A stretch of 64,000 nucleotides of DNA from Pseudomonadota bacterium (GTDB lineage: Bacteria > Pseudomonadota > Gammaproteobacteria > Xanthomonadales > Rhodanobacteraceae): contig JAFEFQ010000239.1 in NCBI GenBank assembly GCA_018240505.1, positions 1-64,000 of the forward strand. Reading direction: 5' to 3'. The notes below the pieces were generated by a model, which worked only from the letters and a program-made list of their open reading frames with translations, made no database searches and was not told where the DNA came from. Every line of letters begins with the position of its first letter. The first letter of the stretch is position 1. The position numbers and the translations under genes are program-made. This document shows, in pieces, positions 51,043 through 62,464 of the stretch.

Positions 51043-52575
51043 GTGAGCAACTCTCGCAACCAGAAGATCAGCAACGGCGAACTGCTCGCTGCCGTCGACC
51101 TGGGTTCGAACAGTTTCCACCTCGTCGTCGCGCGCTACGAGCACGGCGAGCTGCGCGTGATCGATCGGCTGCGCGACAGCGTGCGCATGGCCGCCGGCCT
51201 GCGCGCCGATGGCAGCCTCGACGACGCGCGCCGCGACCGCGCGCTCGCCTGCCTCGCGCGCTTCGGCCAGCGCCTGTCCGGCCTGCCCGCGGAGCGCGTG
51301 CGCGCGGTGGCGACGAACACGGTCCGCCGCCTCGCCGTGCCGGGCATGTTCCTCGCGCCCGCGGAAGATGCGCTCGGCCATGCGATCGAAGTCGTCTCGG
51401 GTCGCGAGGAAGCGCGCCTGATCTATCTCGGCGTCGCCCACGGCATACCCGAATCGGCCGAACGCCGCCTCGTCGTCGACATCGGCGGCGGCAGCACCGA
51501 GTTCATCATCGGCCAGCGCTTCGAGGCGCTGGAGAAGGAAAGCCTGCAGATGGGTTGCGTCGCGAGCACGATGCGCTTCTTCGACGACGGCAAGCTGAGC
51601 GCGAAACGCTGGCAGCGCGCGCAGGACGAGATCGCGGTCGAACTGCAGCAGTTCGCCGCCGACTACCGCGCGCACGGCTGGAGCGAGACGATCGGGTCGA
51701 GCGGCACGGCGAAGGCGATCGGCAACGTCGCCCAGGCCTGCGGCTGGAGCGAGACCGGCATCTCGCGCGTCGCGCTGGAGAAGATCCGCGACGCCCTGCT
51801 CGCCGCCGGCAGCATCGACCGGATCCGCCTGCCGGGCCTCGCCGAGGATCGCGTCGGCGTGTTCGCGGGCGGCGTGGTCATCCTCGAGGCCGCGTTCGCC
51901 GCGCTCGACATCCGCCAGATGCGCGTCTGCGAAACCGCGATGCGCGAAGGCCTGCTCTACGACATGATCGGCCGCGCCGAACACCGCGATCCGCGTACTG
52001 CGAGCATCACCGCGCTCGCCCAGCGCTACGGCGTCGATCGCGCCCATGCCGCGCGCGTCGAAGCGACCGCGCACGCGCTGTTCGATTCGATCGCGCTGGA
52101 CTGGCAGCTCGGCCGCGACGAGCGCGACTGGCTGGCCTGGGCCGCGCACATCCACGAGATCGGCCTCGCGATCGCACACAGCCAGCACCATATCCACGGC
52201 GCCTACATCGTCGAGAACTCCGATCTCGCCGGCTTCGCCCGCCACGAACAGATCGTGCTCGCGATCATCCTGCGCTGCCACCGGCGCAAACCCGACCAGA
52301 GCATCATCGACATCGCGCCAGAGCGCCTGCGCCGCTCGACCGCACGCGTCACCGCACTGCTGCGCCTCGCCGTGCTGCTGCAGCGCGCGCGCAAACCCGA
52401 GCCGCTGCCGCCGCTCACGCTCAAGCTCGAGGACCGGACCTTGCAACTGCGCCTGCCCGAAGCCTGGCTCGACGCGCACCCGCTGACGCGCACCGACCTC
52501 GACCAGGAGCGCGACTATCTCAAGCACCTCGACATCAAGTTGCAGGTAAAGGCCGGCGAGAAGCTTGCCGCGTGA
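51043..52575 (+). CDS. ppx: Exopolyphosphatase (Ppx/GppA family)
   Basis: Ppx removes terminal phosphate from polyphosphate. The 510-residue protein has the ASKHA N-terminal domain (LLAAVDLGSNSFHLVVARY at 14-32, AVATNTVRRLA near 88-98, EVVSGREEARLIYLGVAHG near 115-133, LVVDIGGGSTEFIIG near 146-160) and the C-terminal HD-like domain (LDWQLGRDERDWLAWAAHIHEIG, HHIHGAYIVENSDLAGF). The start is GTG. The upstream sequence is mostly the MITE, so the promoter is either inside the element or beyond it. A tetraphosphatase role in pppGpp hydrolysis (GppA) is an alternative because sequence does not separate them well. Confidence 0.92.
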   Translation: MSNSRNQKISNGELLAAVDLGSNSFHLVVARYEHGELRVIDRLRDSVRMAAGLRADGSLDDARRDRALACLARFGQRLSGLPAERVRAVATNTVRRLAVPGMFLAPAEDALGHAIEVVSGREEARLIYLGVAHGIPESAERRLVVDIGGGSTEFIIGQRFEALEKESLQMGCVASTMRFFDDGKLSAKRWQRAQDEIAVELQQFAADYRAHGWSETIGSSGTAKAIGNVAQACGWSETGISRVALEKIRDALLAAGSIDRIRLPGLAEDRVGVFAGGVVILEAAFAALDIRQMRVCETAMREGLLYDMIGRAEHRDPRTASITALAQRYGVDRAHAARVEATAHALFDSIALDWQLGRDERDWLAWAAHIHEIGLAIAHSQHHIHGAYIVENSDLAGFARHEQIVLAIILRCHRRKPDQSIIDIAPERLRRSTARVTALLRLAVLLQRARKPEPLPPLTLKLEDRTLQLRLPEAWLDAHPLTRTDLDQERDYLKHLDIKLQVKAGEKLAA

Positions 52576-52664
52576 GGACAGGTTCCGGATTGGCGCCGCG
52601 TTCGACTGTGCTCGCCCTCGTCGTGCCGCTATCATGGCGGCCTTTCGTATCCGGAGTTTCCCGC

Positions 52665-53342
52665 ATGACCCGCCATCTCCTGCTCAGTCTCGCCTTTCTC
52701 GCCGCCGCCCCGCTCGCGTTCGCCCAAGCGCCGGCCAAGCCGGTCGCCCAGCCTGCGACGAAGCCGGCCGTGGCGAAACCGGCCGCCGCCGCACCGGCGA
52801 ACAAGCCTGCGGCCGCCACGCCCGCACCCGCGGCGGCGACCAAGGCCGTGCTGCACACGAGCCTGGGCGACATCACGATCGAACTCAACGCCGAGAAGGC
52901 GCCGAAGTCGGTGGAGAACTTCGTCCAGTACGCGAAGGACGGTTTCTACAACGGCACCGTGTTCCATCGCGTGATTCCCGGCTTCATGGTCCAGGGCGGA
53001 GGCTACGCCCGCGACCTGCAGGAGAAGAAGACGCGCGCGCCGATCCGCAACGAGGCGAACAACGGCCTGTCCAACCTGAAGTACACCGTGTCGATGGCGC
53101 GCACGCCCGATCCGCACTCGGCACGCGCGCAGTTCTTCATCAACCTCGTCGACAACAAGCGCCTGGACTACACCAGCGACACGAGTCCGGCCACCTGGGG
53201 CTATGCGGTGTTCGGCAAGGTGATCAAGGGCAGCGAAGTCGTCGACAAGATCGCCGCGATCCCGACCGGCGCCGCCGGCCCGTTCTCCAGCGACGTGCCG
53301 ACGACGGCGGTGACGATCGACAAGGTCGAACTGCTGCCGTAA
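52665..53342 (+). CDS. Periplasmic cyclophilin-type peptidyl-prolyl isomerase
   Basis: A 225-residue exported isomerase. A signal peptide (about 1-20) is followed by a low-complexity Ala/Pro/Lys region (about 21-58), then the cyclophilin domain (60-225). Core blocks are LHTSLGDITIELNAEKAPKS, FVQYAKDGFYNGTVFHRVIP (with the catalytic Arg), FMVQGGG, SMARTPDPHSARAQFFINLV and WGYAVFGKVIKGSEVVDKI. PpiA-like enzymes aid periplasmic folding. The 3' end of this gene reappears at 57250-57280 in the tandem duplication. It runs into lpxH on the same strand with 57 bp between. Confidence 0.93.
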   Translation: MTRHLLLSLAFLAAAPLAFAQAPAKPVAQPATKPAVAKPAAAAPANKPAAATPAPAAATKAVLHTSLGDITIELNAEKAPKSVENFVQYAKDGFYNGTVFHRVIPGFMVQGGGYARDLQEKKTRAPIRNEANNGLSNLKYTVSMARTPDPHSARAQFFINLVDNKRLDYTSDTSPATWGYAVFGKVIKGSEVVDKIAAIPTGAAGPFSSDVPTTAVTIDKVELLP

Positions 53343-53399
53343 GCCTCGCCTGCTGCGCTGCTCCGCGGCAACGTGCGGGCAGCGTGAAGCGGAACGTCG

Positions 53400-54089
53400 A
53401 TGCCGACCCTGTTCATCTCCGACCTGCACCTCGACCCACGGCGTCCGCATATTGTGGATTTGTATACTGAGTTGCTGGCCGGCGAGGCGCGCCGCGCGGA
53501 CGCGCTCTACGTACTCGGCGACCTGTTCGAGGCCTGGATCGGCGACGACGACGATGCCGAACTGCCCGCGCGCGTCGCCGCGGCCACGCGCGCGCTGCGC
53601 GAGGCGGGCGTACCGGTGTACTTCATGCGGGGCAACCGTGATTTCCTGCTCGGCGAAGATTACGCGGCGCGCGCCGGCATGACCCTGCTCGCCGATCCCG
53701 CCGTGATCGAACTCGACGGCGAGCGCGTGCTGCTGACGCACGGCGACACGCTGTGCACGGACGACGCCGACTACCAGAAATTCCGCACGCTCGTGCGCGA
53801 CCCGCGCTGGCAGCGGCAGTTTCTCGCCAAGCCGCTCGCCGAACGCCGCGCCTTCGCCGCGCAGGCGCGCGGCGAGAGCCGCAAGCACACCTCGGCGGCG
53901 AAGCCCGAGATCATGGACGTCAACCAGGACGCCGTCGCCGCCGCGATGCGCGCGCACGGCGTGCGCAAGTTGATCCACGGCCACACGCATCGCCCGGCCA
54001 CGCACCACTTCGACCTGGATGGACACACGGCCGAACGCATCGTGCTCGGCGACTGGTACGAACAGGACAGCGTGCTGCGCATCGGCTAG
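53400..54089 (+). CDS. lpxH: UDP-2,3-diacylglucosamine diphosphatase
   Basis: LpxH cleaves UDP-2,3-diacylglucosamine to lipid X and UMP in lipid A biosynthesis, at the inner face of the cytoplasmic membrane. The 229-residue protein has the calcineurin-like metal motifs: DLH at 8-10, GD at 40-41, GNRD at 78-81, HGD at 114-116, and HGHTH at 193-197, plus the family's DVNQDAVAAAMR near 173-184. All ligands are intact, so this is the functional copy. A decayed second copy lies at 57342-57656. Confidence 0.96.
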   Translation: MPTLFISDLHLDPRRPHIVDLYTELLAGEARRADALYVLGDLFEAWIGDDDDAELPARVAAATRALREAGVPVYFMRGNRDFLLGEDYAARAGMTLLADPAVIELDGERVLLTHGDTLCTDDADYQKFRTLVRDPRWQRQFLAKPLAERRAFAAQARGESRKHTSAAKPEIMDVNQDAVAAAMRAHGVRKLIHGHTHRPATHHFDLDGHTAERIVLGDWYEQDSVLRIG

Positions 54090-54137
54090 CGTCGCAGGTT
54101 TTTGTGGTCACGCGAGCAAGCCCCTCTCGTCGCCCGC

Positions 54138-54197
54138 ATCCCGTAGCAATTCGGGGATTTCGCGCGCCGACAAGCGCGAAACCCCGACTTCCGGGAT
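54138..54197. terminator. Strong hairpin between convergent lpxH and DUF1631 genes
   Basis: Arms CGGGG-A-TTTCGCGC (54152-54165) and GCGCGAAACCCCG (54174-54186) pair with one bulged base. Outer arms ATCCCG (54138-54143) and CGGGAT (54192-54197) extend it. It lies between the stops of lpxH and the minus-strand DUF1631 gene and could end both transcripts. Confidence 0.55.
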
Positions 54198-54204
54198 ACA
54201 CGAA

Positions 54205-57072
54205 TCAGGATAGTGTCGATGTAACGTTTTCGCGCAGTTTGCTGAACATCGACTGCAGGGAACGATCGAACATCGACTCGCGCGGAACAACGAATGCCAG
54301 TTCGCGATCGAGCAGATCGTCGAGGTCGAGCCTGCTTTCTTCCCGCCACAACGTGCCATCCGGCTTGATCAGAATCGTCCGCCCTGTGAGAGAACTGATC
54401 CACGTCACCTTGCCGCGGCCAACCCGGCCCGAGGCCGCAAGGAAGGTCGTGTGGCTGGCGCCAGCGCCGCTGCGGAATTCGATCCAGTCGCCGACCTTCC
54501 AGCGTGCGGGAACCATTCTGACCGGAGCAGGCTTGGCGGCAGGTGCGGGCGCCGGCTCCGATGCGGATATCGCTGCTAGTGGACTGCCGGCGGGTACTTC
54601 GATTCGCGATTCCGCCTGTGCAACCGCATTCGCCGCGGCTGTCGCCTGCGCCGGCGCCTGCCCGGCAATCGCCGGCTGCAGACGCGCCGCAACCAACCCT
54701 TCCAGCCAGTTCCACCGGCGCGACGAATCGGGGGCGACGCGTCCGGTGCGGACATCGGCCCACAGGCGGAACGTGGCGATCCAGCGCTCGCGTGCCTCGA
54801 CCGGCGCCGGTCCTTCGGCCAGCACCATCTTCCAGGCTCGTTCGATTGCGGGCCAATCCTGTTCCAGATCGGCCTGCGCCCGCGCACCCGCCTCCACCGA
54901 GAACAGGCCGACGATCGCATTGAACTGGCGGTCCAGCCACGAGGCCTCGTAGGACCGCTCGCCGTGTACTTCCCGAATGCGAACCTCGTGGTTGACCCAG
55001 AGCAGGGACAGAGCGTGACGCAGCCCTTCCGGCATGACTTTTCCGTCCAGCCGCTCGCGCATGCGCGAGGTCACCGACAAGAGGATCTGATACGCATTCG
55101 CGGACCGCTCGCCGCCCGAATCGGCGGCGCGGCTCGACGGCACTGCAGCGGACGACTCCGGTGATGGCACGGGTGTGGCTGCTCCCTGCGCCACGGACTT
55201 CGCCCCGGCGGCTCCCCGCGCGACTTCCGCCGCCGTTTGCTCGACCAGGGCCTGTAGTTCGACGTCGACCAGGGCCGCTACCTGATCGTGCTCGCGCGTG
55301 GCGACTCGCCTTTCGATCGAATCGCACCAGGTGCTGAACTGCGCCCATTCCTGCTCGAAAAGGATCCGCGTGATCGTGGTGGCCCTGACGATGCGTTCGA
55401 CGAGAGCATGCATTTTTTGCATTGTCTCTGCCAACTGCGGATTGTCCGGCATGCAGGCCTTTCCGACCTCGGCCAGCCGATCGATCAGCGCGCGCGCCGG
55501 ATGGTGCAAGTCCGAAAACAGTTCCGGATCGATCAAGACCGCGCGCAGATACGGCAACTGCAGGCGCGACAACAGGACCTGGACTGCAGCGGGCAAGGCC
55601 GGATCCGACTGGATGTAGGAGAACATCATCGCCACCATGTCGACAACGTCCTCGTACTCGCCGAGGGTGACTCCATGCTCCTCGGCAAGGCGCCCGTCCG
55701 CGTGCGGCGTGACTTCGCCGTCCCCACCGTGGATCCGGTCACTCAGTACCTTGCGCAGTTCGCGCTTGAGCTGATCGGCATCCAGCCTCTCTCCTTCGGT
55801 AATGTCCATCCAGGATGCAGGCAGGGACGGGGATGGCAGGGTGGCGAGCGCCTCCAGCAAGGTTTCCAACTCCAGGGTCTGCAACATGGGGGCCTCCAGG
55901 GCGGCGAAACTCCAGCCGGAGTTATCGCCCGAGGAATCTGCTGACCCAGCGTAGCCGGGGACAGAAAAGGGACCGGACGCAGCGGTCGACAAGACCGCCT
56001 GCCGGGCCAAGCGTCGATGCTCCAGCAGGATGCGAACCCAGGCCGCCAGTTGAGTCCGCTCGAAAGCATCCTGCGGAAAATCTCGCAGCGCGTACTGATT
56101 CGCGCTGGGAATGCCGCAACGGATCGAATCGGCATGGTGCATGCGCAGTGCCGGCTCGTACGCTCCGGGTTCGAGCAACGGCATGGTTTCCAGCCACGAT
56201 CGTCCTTTCCTGGCGCCTCTGGAGTCGGTGGCAGCGGCACGCAGTGAAGGCGCGGGTCGCAAGGCGGCGGAACGACCTGGCGGCGAAGACGCACGTGCCC
56301 ACCGCGGCGCTACGCCGCCCCGGGCCAGAAACCGGTTCAGTTCCTGACAAACCACGCCGACCGCGCTCATTACGAAACGGTCGAACAGCTTGAATACGAT
56401 CAAGCTCACGTCGACGGGCAAATCCGAGACCTCGTCGAGGGAATCGGCGAACGTCTGCACCATCATCGCGGGCGAGGCGGGAACATCGTCCTCCTGCACG
56501 ACCTGGTTCTTGCGCAGCAGGGTCAGACGGTGGCACAGCGCGGGCAACTCCGCGCTGCACAGGAACATGCCCCGGTTCACGGTGTGATCCACAGCCAGAT
56601 TTCGTTCGAACGTGGCCGTTTCGTCCAGCGAAAATCCGCCGCGCGGACGGTCACCGTCCGCAAACGAGTCGCGCGCGGAAACCAGGCGCGGCCGGAATGT
56701 TCCGGGCATCTGCGGCATCAAGCCTTTCCAGCGCTCGTCGATGCGGTCGAACCAACCCTCGATCAGCGCATCGCGACTGCGGCGCAGTACGCGCATGCCG
56801 TCGAAGAACTGCTGGAACGTGGCACCCGACCGATCGAACAGCACATCGTCGAGACTTTCGAAGAGCCGGGCCGACATGGGCCGGAGCAGGTCGATCTGGA
56901 TGCGGCTCAGACGGCCCCACCACTCCTGCTCATGCATGGTGCCGCGACGGCCGTCTTCCGCAGCGGAACGATCGGCTCGCAGGACGGGAGTAGCCGGCTC
57001 AGCATCGCCTGCGGGCTGGCCGTCGATGGCCTGGGATGCGGGCGTACCGTGCGTGGGAGGCGATGGCGCCAT
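54205..57072 (-). CDS. DUF1631 family protein, copy 1
   Basis: A 955-residue soluble DUF1631 protein. The N-terminal conserved block includes WWGRLSRIQIDLLRPMSARL, LFDRSGATFQQFFDGMRVLR and VQTFADSLDEVSDLPVDVSL. A long middle is Ala/Gln-rich and variable. The DUF1631 core has LPYLRAVLIDPELFSDLHHP and HPARALIDRLAEVGKACMP. The C-terminal beta-rich segment (about 820-930: VGDWIEFRSGAG, GRGKVTWISSLTGRTILIKP) resembles a PilZ-like barrel, but the RxxxR motif is not evident. Function unknown. The copy at 57659-60532 is its tandem paralogue, about 70% identical by eye over the first 80-residue block. Confidence 0.8.
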   Translation of the reverse strand: MAPSPPTHGTPASQAIDGQPAGDAEPATPVLRADRSAAEDGRRGTMHEQEWWGRLSRIQIDLLRPMSARLFESLDDVLFDRSGATFQQFFDGMRVLRRSRDALIEGWFDRIDERWKGLMPQMPGTFRPRLVSARDSFADGDRPRGGFSLDETATFERNLAVDHTVNRGMFLCSAELPALCHRLTLLRKNQVVQEDDVPASPAMMVQTFADSLDEVSDLPVDVSLIVFKLFDRFVMSAVGVVCQELNRFLARGGVAPRWARASSPPGRSAALRPAPSLRAAATDSRGARKGRSWLETMPLLEPGAYEPALRMHHADSIRCGIPSANQYALRDFPQDAFERTQLAAWVRILLEHRRLARQAVLSTAASGPFSVPGYAGSADSSGDNSGWSFAALEAPMLQTLELETLLEALATLPSPSLPASWMDITEGERLDADQLKRELRKVLSDRIHGGDGEVTPHADGRLAEEHGVTLGEYEDVVDMVAMMFSYIQSDPALPAAVQVLLSRLQLPYLRAVLIDPELFSDLHHPARALIDRLAEVGKACMPDNPQLAETMQKMHALVERIVRATTITRILFEQEWAQFSTWCDSIERRVATREHDQVAALVDVELQALVEQTAAEVARGAAGAKSVAQGAATPVPSPESSAAVPSSRAADSGGERSANAYQILLSVTSRMRERLDGKVMPEGLRHALSLLWVNHEVRIREVHGERSYEASWLDRQFNAIVGLFSVEAGARAQADLEQDWPAIERAWKMVLAEGPAPVEARERWIATFRLWADVRTGRVAPDSSRRWNWLEGLVAARLQPAIAGQAPAQATAAANAVAQAESRIEVPAGSPLAAISASEPAPAPAAKPAPVRMVPARWKVGDWIEFRSGAGASHTTFLAASGRVGRGKVTWISSLTGRTILIKPDGTLWREESRLDLDDLLDRELAFVVPRESMFDRSLQSMFSKLRENVTSTLS

Positions 57073-57103
57073 GTGAATTCCGATGCTCCAAAAGGAACGC
57101 GCC

Positions 57104-57149
57104 GTGCCCTGAACTTGGCACAATCCGAATCGACTGCGGTTCGATCATA
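57104..57149 (-). promoter_or_regulatory. Promoter -10 and leader hairpin of DUF1631 copy 1
   Basis: Minus-strand TATGAT (57149-57144) lies 72 bp before the ATG and aligns with the same hexamer before copy 2. A short hairpin GTGCC/GGCAC (57104-57108 with 57117-57121) lies in the predicted leader. Confidence 0.5.
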
Positions 57150-57341
57150 AAGAAGTCGTTTGCCCTTGTTAGTGATGATGTTCGCTTTTGTCACGAATAC
57201 ATACCTTCAAATTCCCATACTCCCGATCAGGATCGACCACTCCGCCGCCGACGCGGCTATCGACAAGGTCGAACTGCTGCGGCAAGCCGCACTTGCTGCT
57301 GCCCCGCGGCAACGTCAGGGACAGCGTGACACGGAACGTCG

Positions 57342-57656
57342 ATGCCAGCCTTGTTCATCCCTGACCCGCACCGATCCGCAGCGTTCGCACATTTGTGGAT
57401 TTGTATACCAGACTGCTCGCCGGCGAGGCGCGCCGCGCGAACGCGCTCCACATCCTCGGCGAATCGGCAGCGAGACCCGATCGCGGGCGTCAACCAGGAC
57501 GAAGTCGCCGCCGCGATGCGCAGGCTCGGCGTGCGCAGGCTGATCCACGGCCACACGCACCGACCGGCGACGCGTCGTTCGATCTGGACGGCCGCACGAC
57601 CGGAACCGGCGCGCGATTCGCAGGAATGCCGCGCGCAGAAATGCCTGCGGCAGTGA
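57342..57656 (+). pseudogene. lpxH remnant with internal deletion and frame loss
   Basis: Opens with MPALFIPDPH, matching MPTLFISDLH of lpxH. It shifts frame at about 57390 (the VDLYTRLLAGEARRANALHI stretch is in another frame) and rejoins the first frame at GVNQDEVAAAMRRLGVRRLI, followed by HGHTHRPAT. The region for LpxH residues 41-172 is missing, about 390 bp including the GNRD and HGD metal motifs. Upstream (57250-57341) is sequence similar to the 3' end of the cyclophilin gene and the spacer, with the cyclophilin stop lost. The whole 57073-57658 gap therefore holds a decayed duplicate, not new genes. Confidence 0.88.
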
Positions 57657-57658
57657 AC

Positions 57659-60532
57659 TCAGGACGCGACGCTGGCGACGTCTTCGCGCAGCTTGGCGAA
57701 CATCGATTGCATCGAGCGGTTGAACAGGGATTCGCGCGGAACGATGAAAGCGAGGCCACGGTCGATCAGGGCATCCAGATCGACCCTGTCCTCTTCACGC
57801 CAGAGCGTACCGTCGGTCTTGACCAGCACGGTGCGTCCGGTGAAAGAACCGATCCATGAGACCTTGCCTCGCCCGGCGCGGCTCGGCGCGCTGCCGGATT
57901 CCGCCTGCGCGGCGACTCCAGCCGCCGGTTCGTCCTTGAACTCGATCCAGTCGCCAACCGCCCAGCGCGCCGGTGCCGGCTGGGCCGGAGCCAGCTTGGC
58001 GCTGGAACCGGGTGATTGCGTCGACGCCGAACCCGCAGTCGCCGCAGACTCGACGGCCTGCTCCCCCGCTCCCGCCGGCAATGCCGCGGCCGAGGGAGCC
58101 GTTCCACGCATCTTCTCCGATGGCGCGGAATCCGAAGCAACCAGGCCTTCCCGCCAATTCCAGCGTGCCGATGGATCGGCGGCGACACGGCCGATCCGGA
58201 CCTCGGCCCAGCGTCGGAACGTCGCGATCCAGTTCGTGCGTGCTTCGACAGGAGCAGAGCCTTCGGCCAGCACCTGGCTCCAGGCGCGTTCGATGCCCGG
58301 CCAGTCCTGCGCGAACTGCTCCTGCGCCTTGGCGTCCTGTTTCGTCGTGAACAGGGCCGCTACCGCGGCGAGTTGCCGATCCAGCCAGGACGCCTCGTAG
58401 GACCGTTCTCCGAACTTCTCCCAGACCCGCACCTGATGATTGACCCAAAGCAGCGACAGCGCATGGCGCAGTCCTTCCGGCATCGCCTTGCCTTCAATCC
58501 GTTCGCGCATGCGCGCGGTCACGTCAAGGCGGATCTGATGGAGGTGTGCGCGCCCGACTGAAGGGTTGGAGTCCGACCCCGCCTGCGTCGAAGCCGGCCG
58601 ATCCACATCCGCCGTCGTCGTGGACATGGGCATGGGCTCGTTCGCCGCAACGGACGCGCGCACGGTAGCGGATTCCGCCACGAAAATTTCGACCGGTGCC
58701 GCCTGCTCCGTTGCCTGCGCTTCGCTTGCCTGCGGCTCGTCTTCGATCAACGCGGAGACCTGATCGCGCTCGCGCGCGGCGGCACGCTGCTCAAGCGCGT
58801 CGGACCAGGTGCGGAATTTCGTCCACTCCTGTTCGACGAACGCCCGCGTAATTTCGTGCTGGCCGACAATGCGTCCGACCAGCGAGTGCATTTTCAGCAT
58901 CTTCTCCGCCAGCATCGGGCTCCCCGGCGCGCAACTCTTGCCGAACTCGGCCAGATGGTCCATCAGAGCCCGCGCGGGGTGCTCGGCATCGAAGAACATC
59001 TGCGGCTCGCTCAGCGCCAGACGCAGATACGGCAATTGCAGACGCGACAGCAGGGCCTGCACGGCTGCCGGCAGCGCCTGATCCTGCTGAATGAAACTGA
59101 ACATCATCGCGACCATGTCGATGACGTCCTCATGCTCGCCGAATGCGATGTCGGGCATGTCGGCGTCCACGGCTTCGGCGTGTGCCGCCGCGCCGCCATG
59201 CGCATCCATGCCGTCCGCGCGCGGACGCATCCGTCCATGCAACGAACGACTGAGATCGTTCTTGAGCTGGCCTGGATCCCAGGCGGCTTCTTCCGGCTCG
59301 CCCACCCAGGACGTGGGCAGCGCCGGCGACGGCAGCGATGCCAGTACCTCCATCAGGGCTCCCAACTCCAGTGTCCGCGGGGCCGTGGCGGGGGCGATCG
59401 CGCCCCATTCCGCAGTCGCCCCCCCGCGAACCGGTGCTGCATGCGCGACACCGGGAATCTGTCCGGCCGCTTGCGCCCACGAAGCGGCGTAGCGGGCCAT
59501 GCGCCGATGTTCGAGCAAGGCGCGAACGGAGGCAGTCAACTGCTGCTGCCCCACGACTTCCGCAAGATCCTGTTGCAGGTATCCGGAAACGGAAGCTGCC
59601 GCGAACTGCGCCGACATGCCGGCGACCGGCGCTGCCTGATCAAGCGCGGGAACGGTTTCCAGCCAGAACGGATCTTCCCACACTTCGGTGGGAGCGGATG
59701 GCATCGCCGCCTGGGGCGCAGGCCGCGCAACGGAGGAGCGCGTGGGCGACGACGGCGCCCAGGTCCAGCGCGGGGCAATCCCGCCCGCCACGAGGATCCG
59801 GTTCAGTTCCTTGCAAAGCATGTCGACCGCATTGATCACCACGCGATCGAACAACTTGAACACGATCAGCGCCACCTCGACGGGCAGGCTCTGCACCTCG
59901 TCCAGTGACTTCGCGAACGTCTGCACGAGCAGAAGCGGAGCGGCAGGTACTTCTTCCGGCGCCACTTCGGCACCCTTGCGCAGCAGCGTCAGGCGGTGGC
60001 ACAACGGCGGCAACTCCATGCGGCACAGGGACAGGCCGCGCGCGACCGCGCTGTCGATGGCCAACTTCCGCTCGAGCGTGACCTCGTCGATCAGCGCAAA
60101 CTCGCCGTTTACCGTTTCCTCGACGGGCGCACCGTCCGCGGAAACCAGACGCGGACGGAATGCTCCCGGCGCCTGCGGCTTCAAGCGGTTCCATGCTTCG
60201 TCGACGCGGTCGAACCAGCCCTGGAGCAGCGCGTCGCGATTCTTGCGCAAGATGCGCATGCCTTCGAAGAATTGCTGGAACGAGGAGCCTGATCGATCGA
60301 AAAGCGTATCGTCGAGCTTTTCGAACAGTTGCGCCGACAGCGGGCGGAGCATGTCGATCTGGGTCTGGCTCAGACGACTCCACCAGTCCTGTTCCGAGCC
60401 GTGATCCTGATGCACCCCGCCGGCATTTGGATAGCGGTGGGAGGTCGAAACGGAATCGGCGCGTGCTCCCCCGCGGTCCGACTGGGCAGATACGGAGGCC
60501 GATGCGGGCGGACGGTGGGGCTGGTACGTCAT
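57659..60532 (-). CDS. DUF1631 family protein, copy 2
   Basis: A 957-residue paralogue of the gene at 54205-57072 with the same layout. The N-terminal block WWSRLSQTQIDMLRPLSAQL aligns residue for residue, a variable Ala/Gln-rich middle follows, the core is LPYLRLALSEPQMFFDAEHP, and the C-terminal barrel-like segment has AVGDWIEFKDEPAAG and GRGKVSWIGSFTGRTVLVK. Divergence from copy 1 is highest in the middle, which suggests relaxed constraint there. Like copy 1 it runs convergent to an lpxH copy, here a pseudogene. Function unknown for the family. Confidence 0.8.
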   Translation of the reverse strand: MTYQPHRPPASASVSAQSDRGGARADSVSTSHRYPNAGGVHQDHGSEQDWWSRLSQTQIDMLRPLSAQLFEKLDDTLFDRSGSSFQQFFEGMRILRKNRDALLQGWFDRVDEAWNRLKPQAPGAFRPRLVSADGAPVEETVNGEFALIDEVTLERKLAIDSAVARGLSLCRMELPPLCHRLTLLRKGAEVAPEEVPAAPLLLVQTFAKSLDEVQSLPVEVALIVFKLFDRVVINAVDMLCKELNRILVAGGIAPRWTWAPSSPTRSSVARPAPQAAMPSAPTEVWEDPFWLETVPALDQAAPVAGMSAQFAAASVSGYLQQDLAEVVGQQQLTASVRALLEHRRMARYAASWAQAAGQIPGVAHAAPVRGGATAEWGAIAPATAPRTLELGALMEVLASLPSPALPTSWVGEPEEAAWDPGQLKNDLSRSLHGRMRPRADGMDAHGGAAAHAEAVDADMPDIAFGEHEDVIDMVAMMFSFIQQDQALPAAVQALLSRLQLPYLRLALSEPQMFFDAEHPARALMDHLAEFGKSCAPGSPMLAEKMLKMHSLVGRIVGQHEITRAFVEQEWTKFRTWSDALEQRAAARERDQVSALIEDEPQASEAQATEQAAPVEIFVAESATVRASVAANEPMPMSTTTADVDRPASTQAGSDSNPSVGRAHLHQIRLDVTARMRERIEGKAMPEGLRHALSLLWVNHQVRVWEKFGERSYEASWLDRQLAAVAALFTTKQDAKAQEQFAQDWPGIERAWSQVLAEGSAPVEARTNWIATFRRWAEVRIGRVAADPSARWNWREGLVASDSAPSEKMRGTAPSAAALPAGAGEQAVESAATAGSASTQSPGSSAKLAPAQPAPARWAVGDWIEFKDEPAAGVAAQAESGSAPSRAGRGKVSWIGSFTGRTVLVKTDGTLWREEDRVDLDALIDRGLAFIVPRESLFNRSMQSMFAKLREDVASVAS

Positions 60533-60547
60533 GGCTTATATTTCCCC

Positions 60548-60613
60548 GTGACCCGCCAAGCCCCCTGAAAACCTGGCGCGGTCACATCAAAAATCGGAGG
60601 CCAGCCGATCATA
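60548..60613 (-). promoter_or_regulatory. Promoter -10 and leader hairpin of DUF1631 copy 2
   Basis: Minus-strand TATGAT (60613-60608) lies 76 bp before the ATG. In the leader an imperfect inverted repeat pairs GTGACCCGCCA (60548-60558) with TGGCGCGGTCAC (60574-60585), 16 nt upstream of the ATG. The stem ends next to the putative GGGGA ribosome-binding site and might affect translation. Confidence 0.5.
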
Positions 60614-60909
60614 GGGAAACGGAACAATTGTTAACGTGACGTTGTTCGCCGTTGCGTCGAACGCGATTGATCGACTTGGCAGAATGCTCTTGTTTTTCTC
60701 GTCTCCGACTCGATCGCGCACGTGACGCAATTCACATGCAGCGCCACTGCTACAGACTTGCCAAGGAGAAATCGGCGGCGTCGACTTCGGCGATGCTCGC
60801 CTGCCCGCCCGGGTAACGTCGTCGAGCAGTCCGGCATGAAGGCACAAGCCTTCGCCGGGCACGTGTTGCTCGAGACGCGGCCCATCTGGCGGACGCACGT
60901 CGTGGTCCA
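60614..60909. other. Intergenic region upstream of the kdp-like leader
   Basis: About 296 bp between the DUF1631 copy 2 promoter and the T-rich repeats. Its left 40 bp aligns with the promoter flank of copy 1 at 57150-57190. I see no open frame with a family match, no RNA gene and no long repeat in the rest. Confidence 0.4.
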
Positions 60910-60967
60910 TGCGATTTTTACGCGATCTTTATCTGCACAAGGCGATTTTCTACGCCGTTCTTATGCG
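60910..60967 (+). promoter_or_regulatory. Four T-rich direct repeats resembling a kdp-type promoter
   Basis: GCGATTTTTA (60911), GCGATCTTTA (60922), GCGATTTTCTA (60942) and GCCGTTCTTA (60954) recur with spacings of 11, 20 and 12 bp, about one or two helical turns, 43-100 bp before the small ORF at 61010. Such T-rich tracts are typical of KdpE operators. This is a comparison from memory and no KdpE-regulated gene follows. Confidence 0.4.
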
Positions 60968-61009
60968 CGGAAGCACAGAGTGACGGCCGTTCTCACACGA
61001 GCCGCCGCA

Positions 61010-61384: not shown

Positions 61385-62464
61385 ATGCGCATCTGCCTTT
61401 CGATGATCGTCAAGAACGAAGCGCCCGTGATCGGGCGCTGCCTGGCCTCGGTGCGCCCCTTCGTGCACGCTTGGGCGATCGCCGACACCGGATCGAGCGA
61501 CGGCACGCAGGACCTCGTGCGCCAGGCGATGGACGGCCTGCCCGGCGAATTGATCGAGCGGCCGTGGGTGGACTTTTCCACCAACCGCAATGAGGCGCTC
61601 GCACTCGCGCGCAAGCACGGCGACTTCGCCTTGATCATCGATGCCGACGAAGTCATCGAAGCCGACGCAGGCTTCGTCTGGCCGAAGCTCGACGCGCCGG
61701 GCTATCTGCTCGAACTCGTCTACGGCGACACGCGCTACCGCCGTGTCGCGATGCCGCGGCTCGACCTCGACTGGGTCTGGCGCGGCGTCCTGCATGAGGC
61801 GCTCAACTCGGCGCACGCGGCGCAGGCGCGCTTCCTGCCCGGCCTGCGCATCCGCGTGCATACCGATGGCGCGCGCAGCCAGCTGAGCCAGCGCGAGAAG
61901 TTCAGCCGCGACGCCGAAGTGCTGCGTCGAGCCTTGAAGGACGAGCCAGACAACGCGCGCTACGCGTTCTATCTGGCCCAGAGCCTTCGCGACGCCGGCG
62001 ACATCAAGGAATCGATCGCCGCCTACGAGGCGCGCGTCGCGATGGGCGGTTGGATCGAAGAGGTATACTTTTCCAAACTCCAGATCGCCATGCTCAAGGA
62101 ACGCATCGGCGCCGCGGCCGCCGAGGTCGCCCTCGCCTATCTCGATGCCTATGACTACCGCCCGGCGCGTGCCGAGGCAGCCTGCGAATTCGCGCGCTGG
62201 AACCGCCAGCAACGCCGTTTCACCGTCGCCCGCGATTTCGCCCGCATCGCCATGAACACTAAGCTGCCGAACGACGTGCTCTTCATCGATCGTCCGGTCT
62301 ACGACTGGCGCGCGCGCGACGAACTGTCGATCGCCCTGTACTGGTGCAACGAACGTGAGGAAAGCGCCCGCCTTTGCCGCGAGTTGCTCGCCGACCCGCG
62401 TCTGCCGAACGAGCAGCGCGAGCGCGTGGCGAAGAATCTCGGGTTCGCGCTGGGCAACGCCTGA
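61385..62464 (+). CDS. Family 2 glycosyltransferase (GT-A fold) with C-terminal helical repeats
   Basis: A 359-residue protein starting MRICLSMIVKNEAPVIGRCL. That start, the DTGSSDGTQDLVRQ block near 34-47 and IIDADEVIEADAGF near 83-96 (DxD-type metal motif) are typical of GT2 enzymes of the SPBc2-type group that elongate or decorate cell-surface glycans. The C-terminal half (about 185-359) is helical with TPR-like repeats (EPDNARYAFYLAQSLRDAGD, IKESIAAYEARVAMGGWIEE). No signal peptide or membrane helix is visible. CATAAT ends 6 nt before the ATG, so the mRNA may be leaderless. Donor and acceptor are unknown. Confidence 0.85.
   Translation: MRICLSMIVKNEAPVIGRCLASVRPFVHAWAIADTGSSDGTQDLVRQAMDGLPGELIERPWVDFSTNRNEALALARKHGDFALIIDADEVIEADAGFVWPKLDAPGYLLELVYGDTRYRRVAMPRLDLDWVWRGVLHEALNSAHAAQARFLPGLRIRVHTDGARSQLSQREKFSRDAEVLRRALKDEPDNARYAFYLAQSLRDAGDIKESIAAYEARVAMGGWIEEVYFSKLQIAMLKERIGAAAAEVALAYLDAYDYRPARAEAACEFARWNRQQRRFTVARDFARIAMNTKLPNDVLFIDRPVYDWRARDELSIALYWCNEREESARLCRELLADPRLPNEQRERVAKNLGFALGNA

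Follow-up and report, generated by a model that had tools for sequence, protein, structure and literature searches.

A young repeat of an lpxH tract between two DUF1631 genes of older divergence in a relative of Rudaea

The window, that is, the whole stretch of 64,000 nucleotides analysed here (contig JAFEFQ010000239.1 of assembly GCA_018240505.1), comes from a draft genome of 3.5 Mb in 281 contigs, 86% complete, whose closest relatives are all Rudaea or near kin. We refer to this genome as G000 and compare it with Rudaea sp. 3F27F6 (G014), Rudaea cellulosilytica DSM 22992 (G008) and the metagenome-assembled genomes SZAS LIN-99 (G002) and SZAS LIN-97 (G004). The locus reads Ppx/GppA(+), cyclophilin(+), lpxH(+), DUF1631 A(−), remnant tract(+), DUF1631 B(−), glycosyltransferase-like gene(+). 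On the left flank, the Ppx/GppA phosphatase gene (51043..52575, +, Pfam PF02541) is syntenic in all four relatives carrying this DUF1631 clade, with 89-95% amino acid identity, and the intact cyclophilin (peptidylprolyl isomerase) gene that follows (52665..53342, +; matches to NCBIfam PRK10903/PRK10791 under their cut-offs) is syntenic in relatives as well. On the right flank, the glycosyltransferase-like gene (61385..62464, +) also adjoins the DUF1631 gene in G002, where its product is 84% identical. A search for phage or defence families found none, and Rfam gave no match within the window.

LpxH, UDP-2,3-diacylglucosamine diphosphatase, forms lipid X on the way to lipid A and is indispensable to model Gram-negative bacteria. 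The only intact lpxH found in the G000 assembly lies at 53400..54089 (+) and matches TIGR01854 over its full length (residues 3-228) with 316 bits against a cut-off of 190, and NF003743 with 321 bits, which places it in the LpxH family. Between the two DUF1631 genes, at about 57243-57603, lies a second tract. Two alignment blocks, each at 81% identity, match it to the cyclophilin 3′ end, the spacer that follows that gene and two parts of lpxH; the first block has 227 columns (E 1e-54) and the second 142 (E 5e-34). The repeated lpxH-DUF1631 order of the original prediction, with homology reaching outside the DUF1631 frames, is thus borne out; the limits first proposed were roughly right, the true span being slightly larger (53300-57200 versus 57243-60650). 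The left edge of the repeat is the cyclophilin 3′ end, whose duplicate at 57243..57285 (+) aligns to about 53297-53342 and encodes no gene. Next come the duplicated cyclophilin-lpxH spacer (57286..57341, +), identical to 53343-53399 at 47/55 positions, and the lpxH remnant (57342..57603, +). The remnant retains a start codon and has, as originally noted, decayed: two frameshifts, a 2-bp loss and a 1-bp gain, fall in the first alignment block, about 370 bp are deleted near 57462, and the 3′ end is gone. The motif CTCGGCG stands at both ends of the deleted segment in the intact gene. From the old start 104 codons can still be read, the first half of them for the most part in a frame other than that of lpxH, and the GHTHRP region alone remains in frame; no intact TIGR01854 frame with its phosphoesterase motifs is left, the middle of the gene having been lost through the frameshifts and the deletion. 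We read this second lpxH, from its sequence, as a pseudogene. Since one intact lpxH is retained, loss of the second copy is unremarkable.

The two DUF1631 genes are open throughout, as had been claimed. A, the divergent copy, encodes 955 amino acids (54205..57072, −; PF07793, E 1.3e-76), with a likely ATG start at 57072 and a TTG start at 57123 open as well; B encodes 957 (57659..60532, −; E 7.7e-76). Both belong to PF07793, at 259 and 256 bits against a gathering cut-off of 33.7. On their profile scores they count as distant relatives of PacR and not as members of that family as curated (NCBIfam NF058594, 102-103 bits against a cut-off of 1200). We know of no function for DUF1631. Papers that name the family mention DUF1631 once each and PF07793 nowhere, none of the PacR literature could be recognised as dealing with this family, and a profile search of the PDB returned no relative. 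An AlphaFold model of B built from six sequences (mean pLDDT 48, pTM 0.26) was too poor for a fold search and suggests at most that the protein is largely helical, with strands concentrated in a small part close to the C-terminus. A and B are about 52-54% identical in amino acids. dN/dS (NG86) is about 0.36 between A and B and 0.27 between B and its G002 counterpart; purifying selection acts on both copies, a sign that each is in use. In composition A and B are alike, in GC content as in GC3, so nothing there points to a foreign source. GC3 stands at about 76-78% in the two genes, versus 89-91% in Ppx, cyclophilin and lpxH (51043-54089), and the DUF1631 gene is likewise lower in GC3 than its neighbours in all four relatives, so that this is a property of the gene and not of recent transfer.

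The similarity between A and B extends upstream of the genes. The promoter-like block of A (57144..57185, −) comprises TATGAT at 57144-57149 and GTTCGC at 57180-57185, 36 bp apart, and its counterpart before B on the same strand (TATGAT 60608-60613, GTTCGC 60644-60649) has the same 36-bp spacing, in agreement with the original prediction. The blocks match at 27/48 aligned bases, which 0/2000 shuffles reach, and look homologous on this alignment. In A, CTAACA-17-TATGAT is the sole sigma-70-like match in 53300-61000, where one is expected by chance. The upstream region of B (60533..60740, −) is 83% identical over 251 columns to that of G002 and 79% over 202 columns to that of G014, both including the first codons; its promoter block alone is common to A. 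Within it, a leader hairpin of the B mRNA is predicted at 60548..60585 (−), with GTGACC...GGTCAC as its arms and CAGGGGG near the loop, and is kept in relatives. This hairpin precedes the DUF1631 gene in five genomes (G000 and those of loci L037, L038, L040 and L039); 4/13 of its pairs are changed on both sides, a number reached by 7/500 shuffles, and 83% of cells are paired versus 24-43% when the structure is slid. Upstream of A there is a shorter hairpin, GTGCC/GGCAC, with TTCAG in its loop. Rfam gave no match here either; the leader hairpin may serve in regulation, for instance as a target of RsmA/CsrA.

Which of the two genes is the resident one? G002, G004, G008 and G014 each carry one long DUF1631 gene of this clade that runs convergently to lpxH; 197 genomes of the family yielded no further member. 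None of the four shows a second copy or a remnant of one, and a search of their lpxH-DUF1631 spacers for lpxH or cyclophilin remnants found none. As no rpoB was found in the draft genome, making that gene unusable for a species tree, the tree was built from Ppx, cyclophilin and lpxH instead; in it G000 pairs with G002 (84/86) and next with G008 (100/100). B, the positional ortholog of the single G002 gene, groups with it with 100/100 support; their 77% amino acid identity, the same glycosyltransferase-like neighbour and the 83% upstream identity identify B as the resident gene. No gene nearer to A than 54% was found among the 197 family genomes or in the genome collection; an unsampled donor is possible.

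The trees show independent ancestry of A and B, and not the common recent ancestry proposed at first. A clade of A and B is rejected on protein (AU p 6.6e-8) and on DNA, with all sites (8.7e-10), first and second (5e-37) or third codon positions (1.4e-6). Along the whole gene, sites at which B equals G002 and A differs exceed those at which A equals B and G002 differs, and no window suggests gene conversion between A and B. The position of A itself is loose: the tests accept it as sister to B and G002, as sister to G008 and as lying outside both (AU p 0.09-0.49). Differences at four-fold sites amount to 0.489 between A and B, 0.508 between A and G002, 0.494 between B and G014 and 0.294 between B and G002. 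Because A and B differ more than B and G002 do, the A/B split is older than the split of G000 from G002.

The repeated lpxH tract gives another age. The spacer of the remnant differs from the intact one at 8/55 positions (identity 0.85) and the spacers of G000 and G002 differ at 24/57 (33/57 identical, 0.58; Fisher p 0.0016), with 34/56 (0.61) identical between remnant and G002; as the spacer is short and the G002 branch somewhat long, this comparison with G002 is by itself modest evidence. Independent of G002 is the comparison with the silent sites of the DUF1631 pair: 8/55 (0.15) in the spacer versus 139/284 (0.49) at the four-fold sites of A and B (Fisher p 1e-6). At first and second codon positions the remnant differs from intact lpxH at 26/172, versus 12/172 between the functional lpxH genes of G000 and G002; this rate is close to that of the spacer, which argues that the remnant evolved much like neutral DNA. 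Remnant and spacer together lie about 15% from the intact copy at neutral-like sites. The coding columns of the remnant alone (263 sites) yielded no starred branch and non-committal AU tests, so that the argument is carried by the spacer and the neutral-rate comparisons. Low divergence of spacer and remnant with high silent divergence of A and B dates the repeat of lpxH as recent and the split between A and B as old.

The original prediction of one duplication for the whole unit therefore holds for the cyclophilin-end-lpxH tract, which was duplicated, and finds no support for the DUF1631 pair as a product of the same event. The order of the repeat and the equal promoter spacing are what a single recent tandem duplication, followed by very fast evolution of A, would leave behind. 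At silent sites too, however, A and B are far more diverged than lpxH is from its remnant or B from G002, and their clade is rejected at p of about 1e-6 or less. On these comparisons we regard such a duplication as very improbable and all but refuted, unless silent sites in A evolved several-fold faster. Slightly less improbable, though still unlikely, is a chimeric contig in which sequences of two strains or species meet at the lpxH repeat, as an assembly of 281 contigs at 86% completeness might allow. The second lpxH is no clean allele: it has frameshifts and an internal deletion, and a chimera would call for a strain whose lpxH was already broken. The region is, moreover, syntenic at either end with a single G002 contig. 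A true remnant and two flanks on one contig make a chimera unlikely.

We favour, at about one chance in two, the explanation that A was imported with DNA of another Rudaea-like lineage, that the same event repeated the cyclophilin-end-lpxH tract, and that the surplus lpxH then decayed. We infer the following course. B would have descended beside lpxH in this Rudaea lineage, and A, divergent in sequence and equipped with a promoter of its own, would have come from another Rudaea-like one. One end of the incoming DNA may have paired with homologous cyclophilin/lpxH DNA and the other joined at or near the cyclophilin 3′ end, which would place a cyclophilin-end-lpxH tract on either side of A. The route could have been homology-facilitated illegitimate recombination, or a tandem duplication followed by exchange of the first DUF1631 copy. 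The extra lpxH next to B could then decay, by small frameshifts and by loss of the segment between the short CTCGGCG repeats, while A and B were both held by purifying selection. In favour of import are the single DUF1631 genes convergent to lpxH in the relatives, in G002 with the flanks of B, the rejection of the A and B clade on protein and every codon-position set, the unequal ages of the lpxH repeat and the A/B split, ComEC, a DNA-uptake channel encoded in G000 and its relatives, and the two unrelated genes that occupy the lpxH-DUF1631 interval in G014. Against it, no donor genome with an A-like gene was found among the 197 family genomes, A and B are alike in composition, the coding part of the remnant by itself finds no place on a tree, and synteny is continuous up to lpxH, with no clear breakpoint resolved inside the intact gene. 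The other junction, between the upstream region of A and the cyclophilin end, lies within about 57190-57243 and fits any tandem duplication too. The accepted placement of A as sister to B and G002 fits a duplication within the lineage and also counts against import.

Such a duplication is the strongest competitor, to which we assign roughly a third of the weight in our judgement. The unit of cyclophilin end, lpxH and DUF1631 would have been duplicated in an ancestor of G000, G002 and perhaps G008; the DUF1631 paralogs would have diverged while gene conversion kept the lpxH tracts alike until one decayed, and G002, perhaps also G008, would have lost one copy, cleanly, once the direct lpxH repeats recombined. 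In protein trees A lies within the G000/G002/G008 group, a group of A, B and G002 is not rejected, the promoter blocks of the two genes look homologous, and a direct-repeat deletion leaves no scar, none being seen in G002. This history requires conversion limited to the lpxH tract and at least one precise loss, and 0/4 relatives show a further copy or the remains of one. A is placed too loosely for a choice between import and an old pair.

The interval between lpxH and DUF1631 seems prone to insertion. In G014 (L038:7311-9891) it holds two unrelated genes, by eye one chitinase-like with proline-threonine linkers and the other with an SH3-like stretch, and in G008 it measures 818 bp. A bolder and unlikely reading is that this interval is a recurrent insertion spot in Rudaea, at which species trade divergent DUF1631 alleles and each exchange rebuilds the essential gene alongside, with A and B together a selected two-allele state and not an accident.

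What does the locus teach? An apparent single tandem duplication, recognised by eye, may hold parts of very different age, and the neutral remnant of an essential gene can be used as a clock to expose them. It also ties a DUF1631 subfamily to lpxH in Rudaea, with divergent copies kept together and open to functional study. The locus is a dated case of an already known kind of event. As in ordinary tandem duplication with pseudogenisation, there is a direct repeat in which one essential copy is kept and the other is broken by frameshifts and a slippage-type deletion; unlike in that process, the two DUF1631 genes differ in age from the lpxH repeat. Homology-facilitated illegitimate recombination is described in Acinetobacter, Streptococcus pneumoniae and Pseudomonas stutzeri (as cited in PMC5361080) and in E. 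coli conjugation (PMC3240628). In such recombination, as proposed here, foreign DNA that pairs by homology at just one of its ends and is joined without homology at the opposite one can be added, so that a resident gene comes to lie displaced downstream; our evidence is comparative only. The same course has been proposed for the immunity gene arrays of the Vibrio T6SS; the displaced resident tract here holds a decayed essential gene, and no kept immunity gene. In Streptococcus pneumoniae, transformation produces merodiploids, in which tandem duplications with two copies of essential genes arise during DNA uptake (PMC3784515). Those duplications span about 100-900 kb between repeats, compared with about 4 kb here and no repeat seen at the edges, and in both cases the extra copy of an essential gene can change freely.
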